From contig NZ_JZEX01000046.1 in assembly GCF_000969415.1 (NCBI RefSeq), positions 1 through 64,000 of the forward strand: a stretch of 64,000 bases of DNA, given 5' to 3'. The position numbers were made by a program, and so were the translations under genes. The notes under the pieces were generated by a model, which searched no databases, was not told where the DNA came from, and saw nothing but the letters and a program-made list of their open reading frames with translations. This DNA is from Devosia geojensis (GTDB lineage: Bacteria; Pseudomonadota; Alphaproteobacteria; Rhizobiales; Devosiaceae). Shown here piece by piece: positions 4,682 through 51,203 of the stretch. Each line of letters opens with the position of its first letter. Positions within the stretch are counted from its first letter, which is position 1.

Positions 4682-4710
4682 TGCGGCTTTGCGGCATTGG
4701 CGGCTCGGGC

Positions 4711-4880
4711 ACCCTTCCCCTCTCCCCTTGAGGGAGAGGGACAGATTTTCCGCGTTCAGCGGAAAATCAGGGTGAGGGGTCTGCGATGTTGCAACTCACA
4801 CCGGCCTTGTGAGTGTCGCATCATCGCTGACCCCTCATCGGCCCCTTCGGGGCACCTTCTCCCTCAAGGGGAGAAGGGGA
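4711..4880. repeat. Palindromic intergenic repeat, family 1b
   Basis: Opposed blocks of the type CTCCCCTTGAGGGAGAGGG and CCTTCTCCCTCAAGGGGAGAAGGG flank the sequence TTTTCCGCGTTCAGCGGAAAA. The same layout appears at 16318-16480, so this is a distinct subfamily with an internal AT-containing hairpin. Confidence 0.85.
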
Positions 4881-4964
4881 CGGGGTCACATGCGATTACC
4901 TGCCACCACCATCAAGGCCCCAGGAAGGGGAGAACTTCACGCCCGTCCCGCGCCATATCGTAAA

Positions 4965-9521: not shown

Positions 9522-9633
9522 GGCCCCCTCACCCTGTCCCTCTCCCCCAAAGGGAGAGGGGACGCTGGCGCGGCCGCGGTGCTCACCTCTCCCTTGGGGG
9601 GAGAGGTCGGCGCGCAGCGCCGGGTGAGGGGGC
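9522..9633. repeat. Palindromic intergenic repeat, family 1, inside the glycoside operon
   Basis: Two opposed half units lie between the binding-protein gene and the first ADP-ribosylglycohydrolase gene. The block could form a long RNA hairpin that lowers or terminates downstream transcription. Confidence 0.88.
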
Positions 9634-9690
9634 CGTTCCTCCGTCACCTGGCAGAGAGTTCGACTGCTTCAGGTGCAAAGGAACCCACCC

Positions 9691-10908: not shown

Positions 10909-13008
10909 ATGCTCTCTCCCGACCAAATCCTTGAAAAGATCTATGCCGGCTTCATCGGCAAGGCCATCGGCGTGCGCCTCGGCGCGCCGGTGGAGCCCAC
11001 AATCTGGAGCTATGAGCGCATCCGGGGCACCTATGGTGAGGTGACGCAATACCTGCGCGACTTCAAGAACTTCGCCGCCGACGACGACACCAACGGGCCG
11101 GTCTACTTCATCCGGGCGCTGCGCGACTACGGGCTCGATGCCACCGCCGAGGATGTCGGCAAGACTTGGCTCAACTACGCGGCCGAAGAACACGGCATGT
11201 ACTGGTGGGGCGGCTATGGCGTCTCGACGGAGCACACCGCCTATCGCAACCTGCGCGCCGGCATTCCGGCCCCGCAGTCGGGCTCCATCGCCACCAACGG
11301 CACGACCGTTGCCGAACAGATCGGCGGGCAGATCTTCATCGACAGCTGGGGCTGGGTGAACCCGGGCAATCCGGAAAAGGCAGCCAAAATGTCTGCAATG
11401 GCCGCGAGCGTCGCCCATGACGGCGAGGGCCTCAACGGCGCCCGCTTCTGCGCCGCCGCCATCGCCGCCGCCTTCGAGGCGCAGACCATCGAGGAGGTCG
11501 TTGCGGTTGCCCTTGCGACGATCCCGCCCGAGAGCCTTTACGCCCGCGTCGCCAACGCCGTCATCGCCTTCCACAAGGCCCATCCCGACGACTGGCGCGC
11601 CTGCCGCGACATGCTGACGGCCGAGTGGGGCTATGACCGCTATCCGGGCGTCTGCCACATCATACCGAATGCCGGCGTGACGGTGATGGCGATCGTCTAC
11701 GGACGCGGCGACCTGCCGCGCACCGTCGAGATCGCCACCATGGCCGGCTGGGATACCGACTGCAACGCGGGCAATGCGGGCGCCATCGTCGGCACGTTCC
11801 AGGGCCTGCAGCCGGGCTGGGACAAGTATAGAAAGCCTATCAACGACTTCCTCGTCGCTTCCGGCGTCGTCGGCTCCATCAACATCGTCGATATCCCGAC
11901 GTTCGCCCGAGAGCTGACAGTGCTGGCGCTCGAGCTTGCCGGCCGCGAGGCGCCCGCGCTCTGGGTCGAGGACATGACGCGGCGCGGCGTGCGCTTCGAT
12001 TTCGACTTGGCCGGTTCGACCCACGGCTTCCGCACGGAAGGGTTCAAGCAGATCGCCGTCAAGGGCTCGGCCGAGCGCCACACGGAGGACTCGCGCGGCA
12101 GCCTCGAGATCCTGCTCGACCGGCTGGAGCGGGGGCAGGGCGGGCGCGTCTTCTGGAAGCCGTTCTACCGCCGCGCCGACTTCGACGACGAGCGCTACCG
12201 GCCGATGTTCTCGCCCTTGGTCGATGCCGGCCAGACCGTCTCGTTCAAGCTCTGGCTCGACCCGTGGAACGGCGACGGGAACCTGCGCATCGCCCCCTAT
12301 GTGCGCCGCACCATGAGCGGGACGATCGAGGAGACCGGCGCCTGGCACGTGCCCTCGAGCGAGGGCTGGCAGGAGGTGAGCTTCACCGTTCCCGAAGGCG
12401 ACGAGGCCATCGACGAGATCGGCATCTCGATCGAGTATTTCGGCCGCCTCAAATTCCTCGGCCGCCTGTTCCTCGCCGATTTCCGCATCGAGGGCGCGGG
12501 TCACGCGCGCATCGATCCCAAGGTCGAGACGCAGGAATGGGGCGCGATCTCGCGCTTCACCTGGAACCGCGGTCACTGGACCAGGCAGGACGGGCGCATC
12601 CATGCCCACACCGCCGGCGACGCCGACATGTGGACCGGGCACTACTACGCCCGCGATCTGACGGTTACCGCCGACATCCGGCGCCTTGCCGGTACCTCGC
12701 AGCTCGTCACCGCCCGTGCCCAGGGCACCAGCCGCTTCTACGCGGCGGGCTTTGACGGCGACGATGTGGTGATCGTCAAGGAGGACTTCGGCACCACCGT
12801 CCTCGCCCGCGCGCCGTTCAAACCGGAAACCGGCCGCAGCTATGCCTTCGCCTTCTCGGTGGATGGCGACAAGCTCAGCTTCTCCGTCGACGGCAAGCCG
12901 GTGCTGGAGGCGAAAGACGCCAGCTTCGCCTACGGCATGGTGGGCCTGCGTATGGCCGCGCCCGGCCGCATGAGCGTCGGCGTCGTCGAGATTGTTGAAC
13001 GTGCATGA
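10909..13008 (+). CDS. ADP-ribosylglycohydrolase-family protein with C-terminal beta-rich domains
   Basis: This 699-residue protein starts at the ATG at 10909 (a TTG just before is less likely). The N-terminal half (about 1-345) is a second ADP-ribosylglycohydrolase-type domain with KAIGVRLGAPVE, DDDTNGPVYFIRAL, SVAHDGEGLNGARF and MAGWDTDCNAGNAGAIVG carrying the acidic metal ligands. The C-terminal half has no alpha-family features: residues about 400-530 look like a jelly-roll carbohydrate-binding module and the last 150 like a laminin-G/DUF1080-type sandwich. There is no signal peptide, so it is probably cytoplasmic. It sits 27 bp after its paralogue; the pair may act on successive products. 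Confidence 0.82.
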   Translation: MLSPDQILEKIYAGFIGKAIGVRLGAPVEPTIWSYERIRGTYGEVTQYLRDFKNFAADDDTNGPVYFIRALRDYGLDATAEDVGKTWLNYAAEEHGMYWWGGYGVSTEHTAYRNLRAGIPAPQSGSIATNGTTVAEQIGGQIFIDSWGWVNPGNPEKAAKMSAMAASVAHDGEGLNGARFCAAAIAAAFEAQTIEEVVAVALATIPPESLYARVANAVIAFHKAHPDDWRACRDMLTAEWGYDRYPGVCHIIPNAGVTVMAIVYGRGDLPRTVEIATMAGWDTDCNAGNAGAIVGTFQGLQPGWDKYRKPINDFLVASGVVGSINIVDIPTFARELTVLALELAGREAPALWVEDMTRRGVRFDFDLAGSTHGFRTEGFKQIAVKGSAERHTEDSRGSLEILLDRLERGQGGRVFWKPFYRRADFDDERYRPMFSPLVDAGQTVSFKLWLDPWNGDGNLRIAPYVRRTMSGTIEETGAWHVPSSEGWQEVSFTVPEGDEAIDEIGISIEYFGRLKFLGRLFLADFRIEGAGHARIDPKVETQEWGAISRFTWNRGHWTRQDGRIHAHTAGDADMWTGHYYARDLTVTADIRRLAGTSQLVTARAQGTSRFYAAGFDGDDVVIVKEDFGTTVLARAPFKPETGRSYAFAFSVDGDKLSFSVDGKPVLEAKDASFAYGMVGLRMAAPGRMSVGVVEIVERA

Positions 13009-13011
13009 GGA

Positions 13012-13141
13012 AGGCCCCCTCACCCGGCCCTTCGGGCCGACCTCTCTCCCAAGGGAGAGGTGTTGCGAGCCATACGGCAGTGCCCCCCTTCACCTCTCCC
13101 TATTGGGGGAGAGGTCGACGCGCAGCGTCGGGTGAGGGGCC
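13012..13141. repeat. Palindromic intergenic repeat, family 1, copy before the ATPase gene
   Basis: Opposed CCCCTCACCCGGCCC and GGGTGAGGGG ends enclose two CTCTCCC/GGGAGAG hairpins. It fills the spacer between the second glycohydrolase and the ATPase. Confidence 0.88.
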
Positions 13142-16317: not shown

Positions 16318-16480
16318 GGCACCCTCCCCTCTCCCCTTGTGGGAGAGGGACCGATTTTCCGTGTCCAGCGGAAAATCAGGGTGAGGGTCCGCGATGCCGC
16401 CACGTCCACCGGCGCCTTGTTGAAGCATCGCAGACCCCTCATCCGCCCTTCGGGCACCTTCTCCCACAAGGGGAGAAGGG
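16318..16480. repeat. Palindromic intergenic repeat, family 1b, in a convergent gap
   Basis: It has the same layout as 4711-4880, with TTTTCCGTGTCCAGCGGAAAA inside. It lies between convergent genes (CoA lyase plus, sensor kinase minus), so it may act as a two-way terminator. Confidence 0.85.
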
Positions 16481-16518
16481 AAGGTGCCATATGCGATTGC
16501 CGTGCTCCTTGAGGGAAA

Positions 16519-27688: not shown

Positions 27689-27708
27689 AGCGTTTGCGGC
27701 TTCGCGAA

Positions 27709-27842
27709 GGCCCCCTCACCCGGCCCCTTGCGGGGCCGACCTCTCCCCCGAAGGGAGAGGTGAAGAGGGGCACTTCGCCAGCAAGCCCGCCACCTCTCCC
27801 TTGGGGGAGAGGTCGGCGCGAAGCGCCGGGTGAGGGGGCCTT
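27709..27842. repeat. Palindromic intergenic repeat, family 1, in a convergent gap
   Basis: Two opposed units lie between the plus-strand barrel gene and the minus-strand Lrp gene. They include CCCCTCACCCGGCCCC and the mirrored GGTGAGGGGGCC. A bidirectional terminator role would suit this position. Confidence 0.88.
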
Positions 27843-28434: not shown

Positions 28435-31400
28435 ATGTCTGCTCTCGCCTCCACGCCGCGCGTGTCCTTCGCCGATTTCCTCGGCCGCAAGCGTCGGGAA
28501 ACGCCGCTGCGCCTTGCCATCGATGCGGCCTACCGCACGCCCGAAACGCAGTGCGTGCCGCCGCTGATCGCTGCGGCGAAAATGCCGCCCGAGACCGCCG
28601 GGAAAATCCGCGCGCTGGCGCTGAAGACGGTCAAGGCCCTGCGGGTCAAGAAGCGGGGCGGGGCAGTCGAGGGACTGATCCACGAATATGCGCTATCGAG
28701 CCAGGAAGGCGTGGCGCTGATGTGCCTTGCCGAGGCGCTGCTGCGTACCCCCGATAATGCCACGCGGGACCGGCTGATCCGCGACAAGATCGCGCCAGGA
28801 GACTGGCAGAGCCACCTCGGTCGCGGCCGCTCCCTCTTCGTCAACGCCGCGACATGGGGCCTGGTAGTGACCGGCAAGCTCGTCTCGCCGGTCGACGATG
28901 AGGGACTATCAAAAGCGCTGACCAGGCTCATCGTCCGCTCGGGCGAGCCGGTGATCCGCGCCGGCGTCAACCTCGCCATGAAGATGATGGGCGAGCAGTT
29001 CGTTTCGGGCGAAACCATCGGCGAGGCGCTGCGCAACGGCCGCGCCATGGAGGCCAGGGGCTTCCGCTATTCCTACGACATGCTGGGCGAGGCGGCGACC
29101 ACCGCCAGGGACGCCGAGCGCTACATGGAGGACTACCGGCAGGCGATCCACGCCATCGGCAAGGCGGCCGAGGGCAAGGGCGTCTATGAAGGTCCCGGCA
29201 TTTCCATCAAGCTCTCGGCGCTGCACCCGCGCTACGCCCGCGCCCAATACGCACGGGTGATGGCGGAGCTGACGCCGCGCGTCGTCGAGCTCGCCCTCCT
29301 CGCTCACTCCTACGACATCGGCCTCAACATCGACGCCGAGGAAGCCGACCGGCTCGATATCTCCCTCGACATCCTCGAAGCGCTCTGCATGGAGCCGAGG
29401 CTCGCCGGCTGGAACGGCATCGGCTTCGTCGTGCAGGCCTATGCCAAGCGCTGCCCGGCCGTGCTCGACTTCGTCATCGATCTTGCCCGCCGCACCGGCC
29501 ACCGGCTGATGGTGCGCCTCGTCAAGGGCGCCTACTGGGACGGCGAGATCAAGCGCGCCCAGCTCGACGGGCTCGCCGACTTTCCGGTCTATACGCGCAA
29601 GGTGCATACCGACGTCGCCTATATCGCCTGCGCGAAAAAGCTGCTGGCAGCGAAGGACGCGGTTTACCCGCAGTTCGCTACCCATAACGCGCAGACCATG
29701 GCGACGATCTACACGCTGGCCGGGCCGGACTACCGTGCCGGCGACTACGAGTTCCAGTGCCTGCATGGCATGGGCGAACCGCTCTACGAGGAAGTGGTGG
29801 GCAAGGCCAAGCTCGATCGGCCGTGCCGCATCTACGCGCCCGTCGGCAGCCACGAGACGCTGCTCGCCTACCTCGTCCGGCGCCTCCTGGAGAACGGCGC
29901 CAACTCCTCCTTCGTCCACCGCATCGCCGACGAGGCGGTTCCGGTCGAGGATCTCGCCCGTGATCCGGCCGAGGAAGCTTCGGCTATCGACCCGCAGGGC
30001 GCGCCGCATCCGCAGATCCGCCTGCCGAGGGACATCCTGGCCGATGGCCGGACCAACTCGCGCGGCATCGACCTTTCCAGTGAGCCGACGCTGCGGCGGC
30101 TGGTCAAGGATTTGAGCGAAAGCGCCTCCGTCGACTGGAGCGCGGTGCCGCTGCTGGGCACCCTCCCTTCTCCCCTCGTGGGAGAAGGTGGTCCGGCGTC
30201 AGCCGGGTCGGATGAGGGGATCGAGGCTCCCAAGTATACCCCTCACCCGCCCTTCGGGCACCCTCTCCCACAAGGGGAGAGGGGAGGGGGGCTCACCACG
30301 AAACGCCTCGTCCACAATCCGGCCGACCGGCGCGACATCGTCGGCACCGTCGAGGAAGCCTGGCCGGAACTTGCCGGCCGGGCGCTGGACGTCGCATCGC
30401 GCGCCGCCGCAGGATGGAATGCCGTTCCGCCCGCCGAGCGCGCCGCGTGCCTCAGGCGTGCGGCCGACGCCATGGAAGGCGAGATGGAAACCCTGATGGG
30501 CATCGCCATCCGCGAGGCCGGCAAGTCGGCGGCCAATGCCGTCTCCGAGGTGCGTGAGGCGGTCGATTTCCTGCGCTACTACGCCGGGCAGGCTGAGCGC
30601 GGGTTCGATGAGACGACACAAGGCATCGGCCCGGTGGTCTGCATCAGTCCGTGGAATTTTCCGCTCGCCATCTTCACCGGCCAGGTCGCTGCCGCGCTGA
30701 TCGCCGGCAATCCGGTCGTTGCAAAACCCTCCGAGGAAACGCCGTTGATTGCCGCCGAGGCCGTGCGCATCCTGCATGCCGCAGGCGTGCCGCGCGAGGT
30801 GCTGCAGATCCTGCCCGGCGACGGCAAGCTTGGGGCCGCGCTCATCGGCGAGCCGCGCATCTGCGGCGTGATGTTCACCGGCTCGACCGAAGTCGCCCGG
30901 TTGATCCGTGGTCAACTCGCAGAGCGCACCCTGCCGGACGGCTCGCCGATCCCGCTCATCGCCGAGACCGGCGGGCAGAACGCGCTCATCGTTGATTCCT
31001 CGGCGCTGACCGAGCAGGTGGTGCTCGACGTCCTCACCTCCGCCTTCGACAGCGCCGGCCAGCGCTGCTCGGCCCTGCGGCTCCTTTGCCTGCAGGAGGA
31101 AGCTGCCGACCGCACCCTCGAGATGCTGAAAGGCGCGCTTGCCGAGCTTTCCGTCGGCAACCCTGAGCGGCTCTCGACCGATATCGGCCCGGTCATAACC
31201 GACGAGGCGCGGAAAACCATCTACGACCACATCGAGGCGATGCGGAGCAGGGGGCACCGCGTCACCAGCCTGCCGCTGCCGGCCGAGACGCGCCACGGGA
31301 CCTTCGTTGCGCCGACGATCATCGAGATCGACGATGTTGCCGAGCTCGGGCGCGAGGTGTTCGGCCCGGTGCTGCACGTGGTGCGGTTCCGGCGCGAAAA

Positions 31401-32208
31401 GCTCGGGGAGCTGATCGGCAAGATCAATGCGCTGGGTTACGCGCTGACCTTCGGCCTCCACACCCGGATCGACACGACCATCGCCGAGGTGACGTCGGCG
31501 GTCGAGGCGGGCAACATCTACATCAACCGCAACCAGATCGGCGCCGTCGTCGGCGTCCAGCCCTTCGGGGGCCACGGGCTTTCCGGCACCGGACCCAAGG
31601 CCGGCGGCCCGCTCTACCTGCGCAGGCTCGTGCGGCAGGCCGGGCAGGACATTCCGGGATTGCCGGCTCGGCGCGCGGCGGATGCCGGGCTCGCGGCTTT
31701 TGCGGACTGGCTCGCGACCGAAGGACGCGCCGAGCTGGCGGATTTCACCCGCATGCTCGGCTTGCATCCGGCTACTGCCGCCAGCATCGAGTTGCCGGGA
31801 CCGGTCGGCGAACGCAACCTCTATCTCACCCGTCCGCGTGGCACCGCTCTGGCGCGCGCCGCAAGCGAAGAGGGCCTCATCCGCCAGCTCGCCGCGATCC
31901 TGGCGACAGGCAACCGGGCGCTTGTCGAAGGGCACAACGGGGTGCTGGCGAAGTTGCCGCCGGCGGTACGCGGGCGGATCGACACCGGGCGCGCCGGGGC
32001 CGGAAAGGTCGCGGCCGTCCTCGTCGAGGGCGACCGGGAAGCGGTGCTGGCGACGAGCCGGGAAGTAGCCGAATGGCCGGGCCCGATCGTCACCGTGCAG
32101 GGTTCGGCCGAAGGACGCTACAACCTGGATCTCCTGGTGGAGGAGGTCTCGATCAGCACCAACACGGCCGCCGCCGGCGGCAATGCGAGTTTGATGGCGC
32201 TGGTTTAG
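28435..32208 (+). CDS. putA: Bifunctional proline dehydrogenase / P5C dehydrogenase PutA (type B)
   Basis: This 1257-residue enzyme oxidises proline to glutamate. It has no N-terminal ribbon-helix-helix, so it is not a DNA-binding PutA. The proline dehydrogenase barrel lies at about 130-480 (SIKLSALHPRYARAQ; MVRLVKGAYWDGEIK). The P5C dehydrogenase lies at about 620-1110 with ISPWNFPLAIFTGQ, ETGGQNALIVD and catalytic Cys878 in SAGQRCSALR. A C-terminal vestigial aldehyde-dehydrogenase-like domain follows, as in Sinorhizobium type-B PutA. Residues about 576-621 are encoded by an intergenic-type repeat inserted in frame between the two catalytic modules. The start at 28435 was chosen because homology begins there. 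Confidence 0.95.
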   Translation: MSALASTPRVSFADFLGRKRRETPLRLAIDAAYRTPETQCVPPLIAAAKMPPETAGKIRALALKTVKALRVKKRGGAVEGLIHEYALSSQEGVALMCLAEALLRTPDNATRDRLIRDKIAPGDWQSHLGRGRSLFVNAATWGLVVTGKLVSPVDDEGLSKALTRLIVRSGEPVIRAGVNLAMKMMGEQFVSGETIGEALRNGRAMEARGFRYSYDMLGEAATTARDAERYMEDYRQAIHAIGKAAEGKGVYEGPGISIKLSALHPRYARAQYARVMAELTPRVVELALLAHSYDIGLNIDAEEADRLDISLDILEALCMEPRLAGWNGIGFVVQAYAKRCPAVLDFVIDLARRTGHRLMVRLVKGAYWDGEIKRAQLDGLADFPVYTRKVHTDVAYIACAKKLLAAKDAVYPQFATHNAQTMATIYTLAGPDYRAGDYEFQCLHGMGEPLYEEVVGKAKLDRPCRIYAPVGSHETLLAYLVRRLLENGANSSFVHRIADEAVPVEDLARDPAEEASAIDPQGAPHPQIRLPRDILADGRTNSRGIDLSSEPTLRRLVKDLSESASVDWSAVPLLGTLPSPLVGEGGPASAGSDEGIEAPKYTPHPPFGHPLPQGERGGGLTTKRLVHNPADRRDIVGTVEEAWPELAGRALDVASRAAAGWNAVPPAERAACLRRAADAMEGEMETLMGIAIREAGKSAANAVSEVREAVDFLRYYAGQAERGFDETTQGIGPVVCISPWNFPLAIFTGQVAAALIAGNPVVAKPSEETPLIAAEAVRILHAAGVPREVLQILPGDGKLGAALIGEPRICGVMFTGSTEVARLIRGQLAERTLPDGSPIPLIAETGGQNALIVDSSALTEQVVLDVLTSAFDSAGQRCSALRLLCLQEEAADRTLEMLKGALAELSVGNPERLSTDIGPVITDEARKTIYDHIEAMRSRGHRVTSLPLPAETRHGTFVAPTIIEIDDVAELGREVFGPVLHVVRFRREKLGELIGKINALGYALTFGLHTRIDTTIAEVTSAVEAGNIYINRNQIGAVVGVQPFGGHGLSGTGPKAGGPLYLRRLVRQAGQDIPGLPARRAADAGLAAFADWLATEGRAELADFTRMLGLHPATAASIELPGPVGERNLYLTRPRGTALARAASEEGLIRQLAAILATGNRALVEGHNGVLAKLPPAVRGRIDTGRAGAGKVAAVLVEGDREAVLATSREVAEWPGPIVTVQGSAEGRYNLDLLVEEVSISTNTAAAGGNASLMALV
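30160..30297 (+). repeat. Palindromic repeat inserted in frame inside putA
   Basis: Opposed blocks CCCTTCTCCCCTCGTGGGAG and CTCTCCCACAAGGGGAGAGG with GGATGAGGGG and CCCCTCACCCGCCCTTCGGG between them match the repeat copies at 16318-16480 and 48951-49106. The reading frame passes straight through, adding about 46 residues rich in Gly, Pro and Ser (SPLVGEGG ... PLPQGERGGG) between the two enzyme domains. Confidence 0.88.
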
Positions 32209-48288: not shown

Positions 48289-48948
48289 ATGACCACCCGT
48301 AAAGCCCTCGTCGTCTTCGGCGGCATGGAACTGCACAAGCCCAAACGCGGCGCCGAGGTCGTGCGGACCCTGCTCGAGCCGGAAGGTTTTTCGGTAACGC
48401 TCTCAGAGGATTATGACCTGCTCGGTGCCGACGACATCGCCGGCTACGACCTCGTCGTGCCCTGCGTCACCGACGGCAAGCTCGACCGCGAGAACGGGCA
48501 AAGGCTCACCGCCGCCATCCGTGCCGGCACGGGCTTGGCCGGCTACCACATGGGGCTCGCCACGAGCTTTCGCGACTGCGTGCCCTTCCGCTATGCGGCG
48601 AGCTGCTATTGGGTGGCGCACCCCGGCAATATCATCACTTACCGCGTCGACGTGACCCGTCCGGACCATCCGATCATGGCCGGCATTGGCAGCTTCGAAC
48701 ACACTTCCGAGCAGTACTACCTCAACTACGATCCGGCAGTTGAGGTCCTGGCCACCACCAACTTTTCCGGCGAGTTCGACCCCTGGCGCAAGGACGTGGT
48801 GATGCCGGTGGTCTTTACCACCTACCACGGGGCGGGCCGCGTCTTCTATTCCTCCCTCGGCCACGCGGCCGACGAGCTCGAAATCCCGCACGTGCGCGAA
48901 ATCCTCAAGCGCGGCCTCCTCTGGGCGGCCCGAGAGCCGCGGGGTTGA
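48289..48948 (+). CDS. ThuA-like (trehalose utilisation) domain protein
   Basis: This is a 219-residue class-I glutamine-amidotransferase-like protein of the ThuA family: ALVVFGGMELHKPKRGAEVVR, AGTGLAGYHMGLATSFRD where a nucleophilic Cys would normally be is replaced, HPIMAGIGSFEHTSEQYYL and PVVFTTYHGAGRVFYSSLGHAADE. ThuA proteins support sugar catabolism in rhizobia with poorly known chemistry. It lies 166 bp after the fusion gene across a repeat, on the same strand, and is the last gene of this locus. Confidence 0.88.
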   Translation: MTTRKALVVFGGMELHKPKRGAEVVRTLLEPEGFSVTLSEDYDLLGADDIAGYDLVVPCVTDGKLDRENGQRLTAAIRAGTGLAGYHMGLATSFRDCVPFRYAASCYWVAHPGNIITYRVDVTRPDHPIMAGIGSFEHTSEQYYLNYDPAVEVLATTNFSGEFDPWRKDVVMPVVFTTYHGAGRVFYSSLGHAADELEIPHVREILKRGLLWAAREPRG

Positions 48949-48950
48949 GG

Positions 48951-49106
48951 CACCCTCCCTTCTCCCCTTGTGGGAGAAGGTGGCGCGAAGCGCCGGATGA
49001 GGGGGCTGCTGACCATCAACCCTCTCCGGCGTTATCCGAGCTTACCCCTCATCCGTCTCGCGCTGCGCGCGATCCACCTTCTCCCACAAGGGGAGAAGGG
49101 AAGGGG
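48951..49106. repeat. Family-1b repeat between the ThuA-like gene and recQ
   Basis: It has ACCCTCCCTTCTCCCCTTGTGGGAG and mirrored CTTCTCCCACAAGGGGAGAAG ends. The copy inside putA is closest to this type. Confidence 0.85.
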
Positions 49107-49196
49107 GCTTATCACCGGCTTATGTGGCGTTCAGCCTTGAACCGGGCCTTCTGGCGTGATTCAACCAAGGTGCGCCAAATTCCTTAGATTCGTTCA

Positions 49197-51041: not shown

Positions 51042-51068
51042 TCCCAGGTGGTGGACTAGCGGGTCAAG

Positions 51069-51203
51069 GCCCCCTCACCCGGCGCTTCGCGCCGACCTCT
51101 CCCCCAAGGGAGAGGTGAAGAGGGCAGTGTGCACGATGAGCCGCCACACCTCTCCCTTTGGGGGAGAGGTCGGATTGCGTGGGCAATCCGGGTGAGGGGG
51201 CCT
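51069..51203. repeat. Palindromic intergenic repeat, family 1, between recQ and maeB
   Basis: It lies in a convergent gap with mirrored CCCCCTCACCCGGCGC and CCGGGTGAGGGGGCC ends. It probably ends both transcripts. Confidence 0.88.

Follow-up and report, generated by a model that had tools for sequence, protein, structure and literature searches.

An intergenic-type palindromic repeat in frame in the PutA linker of a Devosiaceae bacterium, and other repeats at shared protein sites among relatives

In this study, we analysed a 64,000-nucleotide stretch of Devosia geojensis DNA (hereafter the window) and found that its putA gene carries, in frame and within the linker between its two catalytic domains, a palindromic repeat of a family whose other copies lie mostly outside genes (Table 1). 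The open reading frame runs across the element without a stop, and the Pfam domains Pro_dh and Aldedh are both complete, one on either side. An intergenic-type repeat at this position had been proposed from a sequence-only reading, which placed it at 30160..30297 with about 46 added residues; the in-frame insert stands, with the start moved to about 30157 and the net gain revised to 40-42 residues. The protein is the single PutA match at E<=1e-50 in the genome of the window (G000, a draft assembly in 207 contigs). Its top solved-structure match is PDB 5kf6, which we take to be the PutA of S. meliloti, and in a tree built from 64 PutA fragments it clusters with Pelagibacterium (Devosiaceae). 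The insertion is very probably the outcome of MITE/REP-like spread of the repeat, combined with selection that keeps the rare copies that lack stops, preserve the frame and sit in a flexible linker.

Table 1. Features of the window discussed in the text, with positions counted from its first letter.
Feature	Position	Strand	Remarks
putA, bifunctional proline dehydrogenase / P5C dehydrogenase with C-terminal extension	28435..32208	+	1257 aa
Proline dehydrogenase domain	29029..29922	+	Pfam Pro_dh, residues 199-496
P5C dehydrogenase domain	30310..31620	+	Pfam Aldedh, residues 626-1062
A-type palindromic repeat, in frame	30157..30297	+	residues 575-621; predicted disordered
Left arm, inverted copy of the right arm	30157..30219	+	borders by inspection
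Central spacer of the element	30220..30238	+	by inspection
Right arm, encoding the peptide PHPPFGHPLPQGERGGG	30239..30291	+	borders by inspection
Further copy of the A-type repeat	16318..16485	+	without a coding-like frame across it
Further copy of the A-type repeat	48946..49109	+	without a coding-like frame across it
Further two-armed copy of the A-type repeat	4708..4885	+	blastn in the window

The arms of the putA element match each other at 90% over 30 bp (positions 5-34 against 132-103 of 141 bases), so that inverted repeats lie at or near its ends, as is expected of a MITE. Folded as RNA, the element reaches -94.2 kcal/mol, compared with -67.6 +/- 4.2 for shuffled sequences (z -6.3), and none of 200 shuffles folded as well; no known Rfam RNA was matched anywhere in the window at gathering thresholds. 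The proposal that this DNA matches repeat copies near 16318-16480 and 48951-49106 was borne out by blastn, at 92% and up to 97%. Within the window the element matches 16434-16484 (92%, E 1.8e-16), 48946-49104 on the minus strand (70% over almost the whole length, E 4e-12), 48949-48983 (97%), 16322-16349 (100%) and 4830-4885 (86%), among others. For the copies at 16318 and 48946, the statement that no coding-like frame spans them comes from a base-usage scan and not from annotation. Across the genome, 102 match rows at E<=1e-3 resolve into 40 separate places, including the window putA (40 of 119 first-look candidates scored), rows exceeding places because both arms match on both strands. These nucleotide matches are highly significant, the best of the other copies being C13:5782-5898, with 85% over query positions 1-125 and E 4.5e-31.

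A-type-related DNA also occurs on 102 plasmid records, mostly from Rhizobium, Azospirillum and Shinella, and from Sinorhizobium as well. Only two of the 57 best places fall under a CDS, a count made among the annotated records in the 60 listed of 102, three of the 60 being unannotated, many being close relatives and the gene table being incomplete. On this count intragenic copies look rare, and most of the copies examined lie outside coding frames.

Relatives with empty sites indicate that the linker gained the element. The closest PutA, from genome G021 (83% and 75% in two matching parts), aligns with residues 6-572 and 619-1256 and has four residues where the window protein has 46, a net gain of 42 residues; 5kf6 aligns with 10-579 and 623-1256, three residues standing against 43, for a net gain of 40. 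Both proteins thus lack the extra residues, and the objection that homologues might share them without the repeat fails. The G021 linker has no match to the repeat queries, and in the PutA tree G000 with its A element is sister to G021 without it (98/95). No target-site duplication was established at the putA element, the closest empty site being diverged.

The inserted peptide is predicted to form a disordered loop. In an AlphaFold model of residues 20-1200, built with 28 relatives and having a mean pLDDT of 79, the four blocks of the insert score 34, 30, 26 and 35, whereas the preceding block scores 71 and the following block 91; the insert is not the sole weak stretch, as pLDDT also falls below 50 at 56-67 and 1015-1038 of the modelled fragment. 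With respect to coding capacity, each of the 28 two-armed copies examined in G000 is open in one or more of its six frames. However, the mean of 2.5 open frames of six per copy lies slightly below the 2.86 +/- 0.22 of Markov shuffles of the 28 copies, and an enrichment of open frames was therefore rejected. Nothing suggests, then, that the element is built for translation, and because open frames are no more frequent than composition predicts, in-frame survivors would arise by chance. Length is divisible by three in 10 of the 28 copies, the borders here being those of the blast hits and not true element ends.

Under the explanation that we favor, the type A repeat, a RIME/REP-like palindrome of about 110-170 bp with two arms and many copies, would have entered putA at its variable inter-domain linker in this strain's lineage. 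The reading frame would have survived since the element contains no stop in that frame and lengthens the gene by a multiple of three bases. The ribosome would then read about 45 further residues with much Pro and Gly, forming a disordered loop, which the enzyme would tolerate owing to the flexibility and natural length variation of the linker. Such repeats would spread through the genome, moved in trans by some enzyme; in-frame copies would persist only where a protein has room, and the family would look intergenic because selection removes most other intragenic copies. Both the putA linker and a loop of CysG seem to have room for inserts. We infer from this picture mobility of the repeat, translation and retention of the peptide, and a near-neutral effect on function. 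For one candidate transposase, Y1_Tnp (PF01797), there was no match in G000, whereas 3 of 75 genus genomes and 5 of 14 controls were positive.

The same linker was then compared across 75 genomes of a genus that is probably Devosia, 67 of which have a PutA match. Five genomes (G001, G034, G043, G052 and G066) were excluded from the linker count, as their linkers run into a contig end, are split or have a broken frame, along with a broken second putA copy of G004. Six repeat queries were used, A-D coming from four putA linkers and E and F from two cysG loops. At E<=1e-3, 14 of the 62 in-frame linkers match palindromic repeats, a count in which the linkers that supplied queries A-D match themselves, and 48 show no match. 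The best type is A in one linker (G000), B in four (G003, G022, G036, G037), C in three (G015, G049, G050), D in five (G012, G013, G065, G067, G074) and E in one (G026). By sequence, the repeats form two groups, A/B/F and C/D/E; similarity between the groups is weaker and short (best A-E, 2e-4; A-C and A-D, 0.035 or worse). The linker types are themselves repeated in whole genomes, with match rows (which outnumber actual copies for types B-E) as follows: type B, 68 in G036, 57 in G022, 71 in G037, 15 in G003 and 75 in G000; type C, 51 in G050, 53 in G049, 54 in G015, 35 in G026 and 16 in G012; type D, 66 in G012, 53 in G067, 52 in G065 and 1 in G000; type E, 25 in G032 and 12 in G068. Type F gave 42 and 35 rows in the genomes with F-type cysG inserts. 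A control query, mostly coding flank just upstream of the linker, matched putA only, once in each of four genomes.

Beyond the genus, an A-type match occurs in 2 of 80 genome contig loci examined, and one of these is inside the putA of Pelagibacterium montanilacus. Its linker holds only the right arm, or half an A element (94% to the half-unit consensus, E 7e-15), and in the tree this gene groups with that of P. luteolum, which lacks the element (96/86). The putA linker has thus accepted a repeat separately at least three times, namely in G000, in P. montanilacus and in a second clade of the genus. Within that second clade further insertions or replacements must have happened; recurrence in one clade could nevertheless reflect turnover of one old insertion, as opposed to fresh insertions. 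On inspection, the contig of G066 ends within a D-like repeat. A second putA linker lies about 50 residues before the first, where G050 (L118, alignment position 550) has a repeat-like insert and where, also by reading, the contig of G034 (L174) ends in a repeat.

Repeats were found in frame in other genes as well. The search for cysG covered 61 genomes, 60 with a match, and among the 20 best-scoring loci, whose genes were read, the loop is filled by a repeat in 7 and free of one in 13. The types outside the window's genome are A in G031 and G053, E in G032 and G068, and F in G063 and G073, and the C-terminal parts are full-length in these six insert-bearing genes. In G000 (L244, G000:C17:44600-47200, ORF 425-2197), a B-type repeat sits beside another palindromic element in one loop, in frame. 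This gene was rejected as a second tolerant gene of the strain, given that its methyltransferase domain stops short (Pfam 1-125 of 212) and that a second CysG-like match exists at C61:92962-93807; it may be decaying. A cysG tree places six filled and three empty loops in one group of nine (93/96), which is poorly resolved inside. By reading, the cysG of G053 (L276 2323-2493) has a small GC-rich repeat apparently nested in its A element with the frame kept. On Shinella plasmids, two annotated genes (L321 1514-2833 and L322 1657-3081) contain two-armed A-type elements in frame: in a dihydrolipoamide acyltransferase (E2) the element lies between the lipoyl (6-77) and E3-binding (152-186) domains, and in an FAD/NAD oxidoreductase it directly precedes the NAD-binding domain.

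A base-usage scan of 125 A/B/C repeat groups flagged seven coding-like spanning frames, in the putA of G000, G050, G049, G015 and G036, the cysG of G000, and L014. The scan covered the fetched loci, with overlapping loci partly counted twice and some genomic copies outside the sample, and the four flagged putA loci outside G000 are matches to a linker query that came from the locus itself or from a sister. Other frames spanning repeats are Arg-rich and were rejected as probably antisense, as judged by eye. A peptide search of 75 genomes returned many long open frames; 2 of the 30 loci checked were flagged, these being the cysG that supplied the query and L299.

Alternatively, the linker might act as a landing pad at the DNA level. 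Palindromes already present, or a target motif, would then draw in later repeats or recombine with them, and the recurrence at this site would be due to insertion or gene conversion and not to tolerance alone. The presence of five repeat types in one putA linker is consistent with this idea, as are the finding of types A, E and F and a double insert in one CysG loop and the apparent nesting in G053. However, the putA elements of G000 and P. montanilacus have sister genes whose linkers contain no repeat, and we regard such a landing pad as unlikely to be the main cause, while giving it some weight.

It is less probable still that the repeat was retained because it is useful, for example if a repeat-derived linker, or an mRNA hairpin between the domains, improved folding, pausing or domain spacing. 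Such a role could account for the recurrence of repeat-filled linkers at a domain boundary and for the strength of the hairpin. The right arm is also read in one common frame (GHLLPQGEKG-like) in five genes, the putA of G000 and P. montanilacus, the two Shinella genes and the cysG of G031, even though five of the six half-unit frames are open, which hints at an extra constraint; these cases are few and partly non-random. Against adaptive retention are the genus putA linkers that do without any repeat match, the unlike peptides of the different repeat types and the low predicted order of the insert.

It is very improbable that the element came to lie in putA through an assembly artifact, with contigs wrongly joined at a repeat. 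The G000 draft is repeat-rich and repeats can cause misjoins, and the contigs of G001, G034, G043 and G066 stop in or near the same putA region. Nevertheless, a single uninterrupted putA frame takes in both flanks and has the expected domain order, and in-frame repeats occupy the same site on megabase-sized contigs of G012, G015, G050 and G067. Finally, although the linker is GC-rich and of low complexity, the chance that an old PutA linker merely resembles the repeat through base composition is negligible, given the blastn match to another genomic copy, the folding score, the absence of the element from the closest homologues and the behavior of the control query.

Spread of the repeat followed by selection on in-frame copies, the reading that we prefer, has parallels in several known families. 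RIMEs (Rhizobium-specific intergenic mosaic elements) are mosaics built of two large palindromes, and REP/BIME sequences are mosaics of inverted palindromic half-units. A RAYT-driven REP/BIME was rejected, as G000 has no Y1_Tnp match. In the available part of the source, RIMEs are multi-copy palindromic repeats of Hyphomicrobiales (PMC2573895). The A-type element, compared by description only, is likewise a multi-copy mosaic of large palindromes in a Hyphomicrobiales host, whereas RIMEs are described as intergenic. The Bru-RS of Brucella are also listed as intergenic in the accessible portion of a further source (PMC2267715). In the available text on CIR of Caulobacter, these alphaproteobacterial repeats are two-armed intergenic palindromes with GANTC, reported to carry stops in all frames and not to have been found inside genes (PMC2229807); identity with CIR was rejected, GANTC being present in just 2 of the 28 two-armed copies.

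The sequence-only reading had likened the insertion to the Rickettsia palindromic elements, and as an analogy of working the comparison is apt. Those elements are palindromes of about 100-150 bp that occur between genes and in frame in protein genes, according to the available parts of two sources (PMC2229807, PMC10969869). The likeness, which is one in way of working, consists in a palindromic repeat present in many places, mostly outside genes, and present in frame in a conserved gene whose relatives have empty sites. In contrast, the host here belongs to Devosiaceae and not Rickettsia, the element is GC-rich and two-armed and shows no dedicated coding frame, and its copies inside genes look rare and recur at shared sites in several species. 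As far as the accessible text of the sources goes, the RU/ERIC elements of enterobacteria and the 107 bp Correia element are bacterial MITEs, small and non-autonomous, that are found intragenically and fused in frame to genes (PMC2759123, PMC2229807), and Wolbachia is reported to have palindromes inside genes. These intragenic elements differ from ours in their hosts, and several were reported with target duplications, none of which is established here.

In-frame palindromic repeats in proteins are thus a known kind, described for Rickettsia, enterobacteria and Neisseria, and reportedly for Wolbachia, in the portions of the literature available. As far as the literature searched shows, the new part is that in Hyphomicrobiales the same sites in proteins are occupied time and again by repeats of different kinds. 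Our search, which left subscription papers mostly out of reach, found no report of repeats inside putA and none of in-frame RIME-type elements. The Hyphomicrobiales case affects central metabolic enzymes, and species differ in the repeat that occupies one and the same linker. New protein segments may come from such repeats, which offer a natural replicate experiment on which protein sites accept selfish DNA, on whether this is decided by the DNA or by the protein, and on whether the inserts are neutral. They are also a warning that a repeat-like peptide in an annotated protein can be genuine sequence and not an error. More broadly, we suggest, tentatively and as something short of probable, that in Devosiaceae and the wider Hyphomicrobiales unrelated palindromic repeats repeatedly enter, and replace each other at, a few protein sites, such as the PutA linker and the CysG loop, which would serve as coding landing pads where selfish DNA continually rewrites the linkers of conserved enzymes.

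Two smaller observations concern the gene and its surroundings. The PutA proteins at L131 and L139 have extra peptides, PHGEARALASLEPRGSGT and PHGELVEPRG, in a P5C dehydrogenase domain loop at alignment position 980, and these may be repeat-derived. The window also contains B-type copies at 1177-1231, 9583-9641, 13007-13062, 27706-27842 and 51066-51120, of which 27706-27842 is an inverted pair of B repeats between open reading frames that, judged by reading, resemble genes for an outer-membrane protein and for an Lrp-type regulator upstream of putA.
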